The translations under genes were made by a program, and so were the position numbers. Shown here one piece after another: positions 61,379-63,325 of a stretch of DNA of 64,000 nt. Below the pieces are notes generated by a model. That model saw only the letters and a program-made list of their open reading frames with translations, was not told the origin of the DNA and searched no databases. Origin of the DNA: Cellulosimicrobium cellulans (GTDB lineage: Bacteria > Actinomycetota > Actinomycetes > Actinomycetales > Cellulomonadaceae); the NCBI RefSeq assembly GCF_006539945.1, contig NZ_BJNZ01000003.1, positions 1-64,000 on the forward strand, in the 5' to 3' direction. Positions within the stretch are counted from its first letter, which is position 1. Every line of letters starts with the position of its first letter.

Positions 61379-61392
61379 GGACGGTGACGTCG

Positions 61393-61500
61393 GCCCTGCT
61401 CCCTTCGCTGGTACGAACCAGATCAGGTTCCACGGGTCTGCAGGGGGGACGGGTGTCCGGCCTGCACTCTCAGCGCTCGTGCGCTCCCCGGAGGCGTTCG
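61393..61500 (-). ncRNA. TPP (thiamine pyrophosphate) riboswitch
   Basis: On the minus strand the conserved THI-element segments occur in order: CTGAGA (61473-61468), GAACCTGATCTGG (61430-61418) and CAGCGAAGGGA (61410-61400). Closing CTCC/GGAG pairs suggest the P1 stem. It is upstream of the YkoEDC-type importer and should switch it off when TPP is plentiful. Ends are approximate. Confidence 0.93.
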
Positions 61501-61628
61501 GCCCCGACCCTAGGGCCTGCGTGCGCTCTCGACAATCCCGGTGTCTCAGCCCGCGGGACGGCGTGGCGAGCGGGTAGGCGTTCGTCCGCGCGACTGCCCG
61601 TGAGGTGCGCGCGCCACCCCGAGCGTTC

Positions 61629-61663
61629 TTGACACCGGTTCGAACACCTGTTCGAATGCTCTC
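61629..61663 (+). promoter_or_regulatory. Promoter of the radical SAM gene, leaderless
   Basis: TTGACA (61629-61634), 17 bp, TCGAAT (61652-61657), then 6 nt to the GTG start. The -35 is a perfect consensus. No ribosome site is present, so the mRNA probably starts at the GTG. Confidence 0.6.
61639..61656. promoter_or_regulatory. LexA (SOS) box
   Basis: An 18 bp perfect palindrome: TTCGAAC-ACCT-GTTCGAA. It matches the Gram-positive SOS consensus CGAAC-N4-GTTCG exactly. It lies between the -35 and -10 and covers most of the -10, where LexA would block polymerase. Confidence 0.85.
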
Positions 61664-63325
61664 GTGCGGTGGGACGGACAGGCGATCGGTGCGGACGACG
61701 GCGCGCTCCCGGGGTTGGAGCGCGTCGGCCTCGTGCGCAGCGTGCGCACGCCGGAGTTCGCGGGGATCACGTTCCACGAGGTGACCGCCAAGAGCGCGCT
61801 GTCCAAGGTTCCGGCGATGTCGCGCATGCCGTTCCGCTGGACGGTCAACCCGTACCGGGGATGCAGCCACGCGTGCTCGTACTGCCTGGCGCCCGCCACG
61901 CCCGTGCTCCTGGCCGACGGCACCCAGCGCCCGATCGGTGAGCTGCGCGTCGGCGACGAGATCATGGGGACCGCGCCGCACGGCGCGTACCGGCGGTACG
62001 TGCGCACGCGCGTGCTCGACCGGTGGACCACCCGCAAGCGCGCCTACCGCGTGACCCTCGCCGACGGCACGCGGCTCGTCGCGAGCGGCGACCACCGGTT
62101 CCTCACGGAACGCGGCTGGCGCCACGTCGTCGGCGGCGCGGGTCCTCGCGCCCACCTCGCTCTCGGCGACGTGCTCGTCGGCCCGGGCGCCGCGGCGCTC
62201 GCTGACGAGGGGGTCGCGCTCGAAGGACGAGACGTCACCGGCGGCGACGCGCTGCGCGTCGACTCCCTCGAGGCCCTCGACGGGCCGGGGGAGGAGACCG
62301 AGCTCGTCGACATCACGACGGGCACGCGCGACTTCGTCGCGGCGGGGGTCGTGAGCCACAACTGCTTCGCGCGGCCCACGCACGAGTACCTGGACCTGGA
62401 CGCGGGGGAGGACTTCGACCGTGAGGTCGTCGTCAAGGTCAACGTCGACGACGTGCTGCGCGCCGAGCTCGGTCGGCGGTCGTGGGGCCGGGAGGCGGTC
62501 GCGCTCGGGACCAACACCGACCCCTACCAGCGGGCCGAGGGCCGCTACCGGCTCATGCCCGGCATCATCGACGCCCTCGCAGCGTCCGGCACGCCGCTGT
62601 CCGTCCTCACCAAGGGGACGCTCCTGCGCCGCGACCTGCCCCTGCTCGCCGACGCCGCCTCGCGCGTCGAGGTCGGGATCGGCGTCTCGCTCGCGCTCCT
62701 CGACCCGGCGCTCCAGGCGAGCGTCGAGCCCGGTACCCCGTCGCCCCGCGCCCGGCTCGACCTCGTCCGGGCCGTCCGCGAGGCGGGGCTGCCGTGCGGC
62801 GTCATGGTCGCGCCCGTGCTGCCCTGGCTGACCGACTCGACCCGCGCGCTCACCGACCTGCTCGACGCGGTGAAGGACGCCGGTGCGACGGGGGTCACCG
62901 TCCTGCCCCTGCACCTCAAGCCGGGCACGCGCGAGTGGTACATGGGCTGGCTCGCGCGCGAGCACCCGCAGCTCGTGCCCGGGTACGAGCGCGTCTACGC
63001 ACGCGGCACGTACGCCTCGAAGGCCTACCGGTCGTGGCTGTGGGACCGCGTGCGCCCGATGCTCGAGGCGCGCGGCTTCGCGGTCTCCGGGCACCGCGAG
63101 CCCGCGGGTGTCGAGGGCCGGTACCGCCGGGGCGAGCTCGGCGGTCTCGGCGACCGGCAGCACGACGCGGGGCCGCCGACGGACGGCATCTACCCGACCG
63201 GGAGCCTCGCCGGGTCACCTCCGGAGCCCGGTGGGCCCGGTCACGACGGCGCCCTCGCGGGCATGCCGGTCGACGGCGGGGGCCTGGACGTCGTCGGCGG
63301 GGGAGTGGAGCAGGTCTTGTTCTGA
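61664..63325 (+). CDS. Rv2578c-family radical SAM protein with embedded mini-intein
   Basis: A 553-residue precursor. The extein is a radical SAM protein: after RMPFRWTVNPYRG comes the CxxxCxxC cluster motif (Cys67, Cys71, Cys74), then FARPTHEYLDLDAGEDFDREVVVK, GTNTDPYQ and GVMVAPVLPWLTDS. A 160-residue intein occupies residues 74-233, so spliced protein would be about 393 residues. The intein's own Cys1 takes the place of the third cluster cysteine before splicing, and the +1 cysteine takes it after. The function of the family is not known to me in detail; SplB-like repair has been suggested. The GTG start is directly behind a LexA-controlled promoter. Confidence 0.93.
   Translation: MRWDGQAIGADDGALPGLERVGLVRSVRTPEFAGITFHEVTAKSALSKVPAMSRMPFRWTVNPYRGCSHACSYCLAPATPVLLADGTQRPIGELRVGDEIMGTAPHGAYRRYVRTRVLDRWTTRKRAYRVTLADGTRLVASGDHRFLTERGWRHVVGGAGPRAHLALGDVLVGPGAAALADEGVALEGRDVTGGDALRVDSLEALDGPGEETELVDITTGTRDFVAAGVVSHNCFARPTHEYLDLDAGEDFDREVVVKVNVDDVLRAELGRRSWGREAVALGTNTDPYQRAEGRYRLMPGIIDALAASGTPLSVLTKGTLLRRDLPLLADAASRVEVGIGVSLALLDPALQASVEPGTPSPRARLDLVRAVREAGLPCGVMVAPVLPWLTDSTRALTDLLDAVKDAGATGVTVLPLHLKPGTREWYMGWLAREHPQLVPGYERVYARGTYASKAYRSWLWDRVRPMLEARGFAVSGHREPAGVEGRYRRGELGGLGDRQHDAGPPTDGIYPTGSLAGSPPEPGGPGHDGALAGMPVDGGGLDVVGGGVEQVLF
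61883..62362 (+). other. Mini-intein coding segment (160 aa, no endonuclease)
   Basis: Block A is CLAPATPVLLADG, with the N-terminal nucleophile Cys; block B includes ASGDHRFL, with serine replacing the usual threonine of TxxH; block F is LVDITTGTRDFVAAG; block G ends VVSHN, followed by the +1 Cys. No LAGLIDADG motif is present, and the region between blocks B and F is only about 70 residues. All residues needed for splicing are visible. The endonuclease has been lost or was never there. Confidence 0.92.

Follow-up and report, generated by a model that had tools for sequence, protein, structure and literature searches.

A mini-intein before the third motif cysteine of an Rv2578c-family radical SAM gene with a conserved SOS box in Cellulosimicrobium cellulans

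The stretch of DNA analysed here (the window) covers positions 1-64,000, forward strand, of contig NZ_BJNZ01000003.1 of Cellulosimicrobium cellulans (GCF_006539945.1). The list of its open reading frames includes a plus-strand frame at 61664-63325 that starts with GTG, codes for 553 amino acids and crosses an inserted segment without a stop. The N-extein of this Rv2578c-family radical SAM protein (61664-61882, +) ends in the residues C-S-H-A-C-S-Y and, as read from the sequence, supplies the first two cysteines of a CxxxCxxC motif: Cys67, at position -7 (61862-61864, +), and Cys71, at position -3 (61874-61876, +), the latter a possible disulphide partner of the intein's own Cys1. The insert is a class-1-type mini-intein of 160 amino acids at 61883-62362 (+), with Cys1, a block B of S68-x-x-H71, a block F residue D143 and a terminal H159-N160, the blocks being putatively assigned by position. 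Cys1 is residue 74 of the precursor (codon 61883-61885) and at the same time the third cysteine of C-S-H-A-C-S-Y-C; there is no other cysteine inside the intein. The intein closes with V-V-S-H-N (HN codons 62357-62362), directly followed by Cys+1 (62363-62365). The C-extein (62363-63322, +) opens as C-F-A-R, so that Cys+1 would become the third motif cysteine after splicing, and carries the radical SAM domain and a C-terminal tail outside the family model, the match to NF038135 stopping at residue 472 of 553. Reading the codons confirmed the coordinates, the 160-residue length and the Cys74 numbering of the initial annotation. On the minus strand, a TPP riboswitch at 61381-61500 (RF00059, 60.5 bits, gathering threshold 54.3) leads divergent genes whose translations resemble an ECF-type thiamine transporter.

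A comparison with NCBIfam assigned the whole protein to NF038136, 'intein-containing Rv2578c family radical SAM protein' (9.1e-235; 780.9 bits, cut-off 700), a model that is also matched by the 160-amino acid segment alone, and to NF038135 (520.3 bits, cut-off 430). TIGR01445 (intein_Nterm) reached 27.7 bits with the segment alone, above its cut-off of 24.5, and 24.3 bits, just under it, in the whole protein. The CxxxCxxC motif and a match to PF04055 (Radical_SAM, 46.8 bits, cut-off 29.5) place the host in the radical SAM superfamily, for which a [4Fe-4S] cluster and SAM chemistry are predicted. Cys1, the block B His71, His159-Asn160 and Cys+1 are the features of a class 1 intein. The threonine of the block B TxxH is absent, the window's intein reading SxxH; this threonine is usual in class 1 inteins but is not known to be obligatory. 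With 160 residues and no match to LAGLIDADG homing endonucleases in a Pfam scan, the segment is a mini-intein, while its relative L041 has an endonuclease domain. The suspicion that the insertion may be known proved right, since it has an NCBIfam model of its own with the window's protein above the cut-off; the insertion is not new, and the locus is another example of an already named intein. Among the open-licence literature matches listed, there was neither a paper on inteins of the Rv2578c radical SAM family nor a splicing experiment on that family. What we add to the known insertion are a conserved SOS box and homologous inteins at the third cysteine of DUF5131 proteins. The same genome holds a second intein, in the replicative helicase DnaB (contig C42, L236:510-3155; NF005852, 1296.7 bits), with LAGLIDADG_3.

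Relatives were collected by searches with NF038135 in a sample of the class, where 177 of 394 genomes matched (158 above the cut-off), and in the taxonomic family of the window, where 75 of 121 matched (73 above the cut-off; the two genomes below it were not included). From 220 sequences parsed, two without a result (L175 and L192) and two duplicates (L145 and L155, of L045 and L052) were removed, which left 216 rows; the loci of the window's own genome (L001-L005) were left out of parsing. The parser demanded both motif cysteines and limited position 1 to C, S or A and position +1 to C, S, T or A. An empty site, C-x3-C-x2-C, was present in 132 rows, an intein shorter than 250 residues in 49 (four of which measure 195-249 amino acids) and a larger one in 35. 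As rows from the class sample are intein-sized matches plus chosen empty ones, the 84 in 216 cannot be taken as a frequency; the 27 of 73 with an intein in the window's taxonomic family can. Eleven members of the window's genus were parsed, the window among them; 10 have the mini form and one is empty. Another genus (g2) has four empty, two mini and three large forms. Three inteins in all were scanned for LAGLIDADG_3: L041, a large one, had a match above the cut-off (40 bits), and L119 (294 amino acids) and L168 (249 amino acids) had none.

The initial annotation had proposed comparing relatives with and without the insertion, an ordinary enzyme domain being the alternative to an intein; the 132 empty sites among 216 relatives reject that alternative. 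The comparison of intein and host phylogenies proposed with it gave a partial correlation (Mantel r 0.32 between intein and host distances over 84 rows, the largest of 999 permutations reaching 0.17), and the 216-row host tree calls for at least 35 changes between presence and absence of the intein. The intein has moved horizontally, with some vertical descent. In our reading these are the stages of a homing cycle: inteins invade, lose their endonuclease and invade again, and mini forms are kept. A phage or plasmid source was considered and rejected: among viral contigs, 38 pattern matches for intein relatives yielded none that was confirmed, none was found in plasmids, and the window's whole protein had one weak match to phage sequences, outside the intein.

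Several lines of evidence bear on splicing competence. All 84 intein rows have identical Cys1, block B His71, block F Asp143, terminal His159-Asn160 and Cys+1 (positions 1 and +1 being those limited by the parser), and position -3 is cysteine in all 84, as the parser's motif requires. The codons, NF038136 and this 84-row alignment bear out the placement of the intein exactly at the third motif cysteine with its splice residues. Selection was measured as NG86 proportions (pN/pS) between the window's intein and nine inteins of the same genus. The values range from 0.067 to 0.397 for the intein and from 0.064 to 0.172 for the C-extein, taken over its first 240 residues; these proportions indicate that the intein is under purifying selection. 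In five of the nine comparisons the intein value is the higher one (0.186 v 0.064, 0.254 v 0.170, 0.366 v 0.166, 0.397 v 0.172 and 0.105 v 0.071), so the intein is often the less constrained of the two. The structure predicted for the intein, built from 24 sequences, has a mean pLDDT of 95.1, and the best 50 of 196 PDB matches all belong to inteins or to bacterial intein-like or hedgehog HINT domains. They include, at rank 47, a DnaE intein whose structure was determined in a redox trap (3nzm, E 6.9e-5). The confident model and these matches identify a HINT fold.

Because of purifying selection and the HINT-fold model, splicing of the window's intein is very likely. A splicing-dead or decaying intein is suggested by the serine that replaces the block B threonine, by the weaker constraint in the five comparisons and by the scores of the segment under the Pfam intein cut-offs (PF14890, 25.1 against 35.8 bits; PF05203, 22.6 against 32.1 bits). 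The block B position holds serine in 78 and glycine in 6 of the 84 rows. Against decay, the frame is open over 553 amino acids, none of the 84 rows departs from the catalytic His, Asp, His-Asn and Cys+1, and pN/pS lies far under 1 in all nine comparisons. We consider decay very improbable, given the selection and the invariant residues. The earlier proposal of a functional mini-intein agrees with the invariant splice residues, the purifying selection and the HINT-fold model, while excision itself remains a prediction.

Actinobacterial SOS operators follow the consensus TCGAAC-N4-GTTCGA. A LexA/SOS box, TCGAACACCTGTTCGA, lies at 61640-61655 (+) with no mismatch, its first base at -24 from the GTG; boxes quoted in passages of PMC9380542 start in the same way as the consensus. 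A possible -35 hexamer, TTGACA, was read at 61629-61634 (+), and together with TCGAAT (61652-61657) it would put the transcription start at or next to the GTG, which would make the transcript leaderless. Of 177 box-aligned relatives, 98 have TTGAC shortly 5' of it; a strict sigma-70 scan of 61400-61900 returned no promoter-like site. The 4.6-Mb genome has the perfect box at 8 places and a reversed control pattern at none. One of these boxes stands at the 5' end of an imuA' frame (NF058630), and boxes with one mismatch stand upstream of recA and lexA. At the remaining six perfect places, a family search revealed no known SOS gene; one frame there is a PadR-like regulator below the cut-off. Located in the putative promoter region and common to imuA', recA and lexA of the same genome, the box has the properties of a LexA-regulon operator. 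Two of the genome's perfect boxes, 54 bases apart (L004, contig C3, 107821-107836 and 107875-107890) lie just downstream of an fmt-like frame; one frame was tried at this pair and had no NCBIfam match.

The box is conserved among relatives. Six of the 216 rows had fewer than 110 bases upstream of the recognised start and were left out; of the 210 upstream regions counted, 177 contain the exact core GAAC-N4-GTTC and 206 contain it with at most one mismatch, against 0.2 and 6.4, respectively, in single-base-composition shuffles. The core begins at -21 to -23 in 177 of those 206. Relatives of group f26 (for example L010, L012 and L014) have the box at about -46, as GGGAAC-N4-GTTCTA, and an RBS-like GAGGAGG before an ATG, so that the close, leaderless-looking layout is replaced there. 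In L125, L126 and L127 (group f5, large intein) the SOS boxes are decayed, with two core mismatches. Judging from the box, the gene appears to be under LexA (SOS) repression, as does the whole family with or without an intein, in which case the enzyme should be made upon DNA damage.

A stronger reading of the box is that DNA damage, for instance in the form of single-stranded DNA, acts on splicing itself. The conserved SOS box on the host gene and a precedent speak for it: passages of PMC10663303 report that splicing of the P. horikoshii RadA intein is stimulated by DNA damage. DNA-damage control of splicing, presented in the initial annotation as something that would be new, is preceded by that case, and the damage link found in the window, a conserved SOS box, is transcriptional. 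Moreover, the box, with at most one mismatch, precedes empty genes just as often (129 of 130) as genes with an intein (77 of 80); it therefore belongs to the host gene and is uninformative on splicing. We regard damage-responsive splicing as highly unlikely, and retain probable LexA control of the host gene.

In the open-licence literature, no paper names both Rv2578c and LexA. Papers on the M. tuberculosis LexA regulon may list the gene, so LexA control as such may be known already. In Streptomyces venezuelae, passages of PMC9380542 report LexA control of a radical SAM gene, vnz_31145, which resembles enzymes that repair thymine cross-links; it is a possible ortholog of the window's gene, and the LexA binding and damage induction reported there concern vnz_31145. 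SplB (COG1533) is placed under SOS control in a passage of PMC8565304. A 2026 study (PMC12924846), in the portions available, states that in Streptomyces the phage Samy uses an Rv2578c-family gene as its attachment site; with Samy, the intein makes a second kind of mobile element that uses this gene family. The same portions give the Streptomyces member a weak identity of 17.6% to Bacillus subtilis SplB, warn against the SplB name, term the DNA-repair link of the family speculative and contain no mention of SOS, LexA or inteins. The SOS box bears directly on that link. The gene is also inactivated in Samy's native host strain (PMC12924846), and Rv2578c is reported to be disrupted in an M. tuberculosis outbreak strain; thus the gene is not always needed.

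A profile built from 24 inteins was searched against the 394 class genomes, with five candidates scored per genome, so that further or weaker hosts may lie outside the matches listed. These matches comprised Rv2578c inteins, many weak ones (E of 1e-11 or more) and a single strong outlier (E 4.9e-23), which is an intein inside a DUF5131 protein (L231:756-3128; PF07505, 277 bits). Its flanks read C-S-K-I-S-S-G-C-D-N before Cys1, T-H-N at the end of the intein and C-Y-A after it, and an intein-free DUF5131 relative reads G-C-S-K-I-S-A-G-C-D-N-C-Y-A. A second DUF5131 intein with the same boundaries lies in an open frame on a Streptomyces plasmid (L240:2402-4196); its gene adjoins a TcmP gene, in a stretch without genes in the (incomplete) gene table. 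The L231 intein (345 amino acids) aligns over its full length to large Rv2578c inteins, with about 30% identity and an E-value of 2e-38. Inteins of DUF5131, the phage Gp37/Gp68 family, resemble those of Rv2578c in their boundary at the third cysteine and in a cysteine at -3, whereas the DUF5131 host motif is C-x6-C-x2-C and that of Rv2578c is C-x3-C-x2-C. Since the alignment is full-length and the third-cysteine boundary is shared, what sits at the third cysteine, after C-x2, in these two families (two records for DUF5131) is, to judge from the alignment, one intein lineage. Homing into similar C-x2-C-coding DNA, or selection for that seat, could be the cause.

A weak match of TIGR04471 to the DUF5131 host, far under the cut-off, hints that DUF5131 may be related to radical SAM or cluster-binding proteins. 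PF07505 was present in 29 of the 394 class genomes, with an intein-like split, judged from match spans, in G276:C359 only. Coverage of the L231 protein of at least 80% was found in none of 278 phage and 355 plasmid records (30 and 15 of them listed), and the best plasmid record among those listed, L240, covered 78%. No paper on inteins of DUF5131 appeared among the open-licence literature matches listed.

Taken as a whole, we hold it highly probable that a mobile class 1 intein, having lost its homing endonuclease, lies before the third cluster cysteine encoded by an apparently LexA-repressed gene. LexA repression would be lifted on DNA damage and the enzyme made, with the precursor translated as a single chain. 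Cys1 would attack the Tyr73-Cys74 bond, the N-extein would be transferred to Cys+1, Asn160 would cyclise and the exteins would be joined. Cys+1 would then complete C-x3-C-x2-C and a [4Fe-4S] cluster could form, the enzyme presumably being inactive before splicing. The site would have been chosen as an invariant cysteine that is costly to disturb, and not as a switch; oxidation of Cys-3, Cys1 or Cys+1 would be expected to slow splicing, but as a side effect of the reaction chemistry.

The main rival is a redox gate, in which a disulphide between Cys-3 and Cys1, or between Cys1 and Cys+1, holds a cluster-free precursor until reduction frees both splicing and the active enzyme. A precedent exists in MoaA, which is a radical SAM enzyme. 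In P. abyssi MoaA, according to passages of PMC10663303, a disulphide between an N-extein cysteine and Cys1 blocks splicing under oxidising conditions, and passages of PMC3922620 name the pair as Cys-3 to Cys1; redox control would consequently not be the novelty that the initial annotation expected. The reported Cys-3 would place the MoaA intein at the third motif cysteine as well. Inhibition of splicing by oxidation is likewise described, in passages of PMC6195587 and PMC8529194, for the mycobacterial DnaBi1 intein and the SufB intein. At the present locus the Cys-3/Cys1 arrangement is as reported for MoaA, homologous inteins occupy the matching third-cysteine position in DUF5131, and the fold matches include the redox-trap DnaE intein. 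Only 8 of the 49 mini-inteins have an internal cysteine and the window's has none besides Cys1, so that a Cys1 disulphide must use motif or +1 cysteines. For the same reason an internal-disulphide switch like that of DnaBi1 is rejected for the window's intein and for 41 of the 49 mini-inteins; the 35 large ones do have internal cysteines, which would permit such a switch.

On the other hand, Cys-3 and Cys+1 are imposed by the host motif and are found in empty relatives too, so nothing in favour of gating follows from their conservation. Each of the 35 large inteins has an internal cysteine, which in 23 of them falls in one alignment column; a conserved extein-only switch is thus less simple for these. 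At -2, T or S stands in 57 of the 84 rows with an intein and in 28 of 132 empty ones, but a phylogeny-aware test of this difference was not significant (median p 0.07, range 0.002-1). Finally, frequent gain and loss does not suggest a necessary switch. By analogy with its close precedent the gating idea is reasonable, and we rate it as possible but rather doubtful for this locus.

A variant is that the precursor binds an iron-sulphur cluster through Cys-7, Cys-3 and Cys1, with cluster occupancy gating splicing. The initial annotation noted that CxxxCxxC is present before and after splicing; the spacing is indeed intact in both, C-x3-C-x2-C being whole in the precursor, but this is automatic for any intein that starts with Cys1 and precedes a motif cysteine, and adds no evidence of function. 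Cys1 is moreover the nucleophile of the HINT splicing site, which it would presumably have to leave in order to bind a cluster, and no precedent appears in the literature passages. Cluster gating thus has very little probability in our estimate, and the mobile intein at an invariant cysteine of a LexA-repressed gene stays our preferred reading.

Combining LexA control and redox gating would give an enzyme with two keys. LexA would free transcription on damage, and the intein would keep a cluster-free precursor, protected from oxidation by the Cys-3/Cys1 disulphide, until the cytoplasm is reducing enough for assembly of the [4Fe-4S] cluster; one intein lineage would hold the third-cysteine seat of Rv2578c and DUF5131 proteins, with MoaA as a separate third case. 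We think this combination unlikely. If redox gating did hold, MoaA-type control would extend to a DNA-damage gene of a mesophilic actinobacterium, the empty, mini and large forms within one family, and even one genus, would be natural controls, and whether inteins are sensors or only parasites could be put to a direct test. Should there be no gating, the SOS box still offers a strong lead on a family that is uncharacterised.

Among known systems, NF038136 (rSAM_Rv_intein) has the same host family, the same intein and the same site as the window's protein, and there is no difference in kind. DnaB inteins are related to the window's both by sequence (NF005852, E 7e-11, far under the cut-off; 4o1r, E 1.8e-5) and by fold (4o1r and 6bs8), but the DnaBi1 intein of M. 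smegmatis is of class 3 with an internal cysteine pair, while the window's intein starts with Cys1 and has no other cysteine. The MoaA intein (Callahan et al. 2011, as described in passages of PMC10663303 and PMC3922620) is like the window's in its oxygen-sensitive host and in a Cys-3 facing Cys1. Unlike the window's intein, for which redox gating is hypothetical, it is archaeal, sits in another host family and has been reported to be redox-gated.
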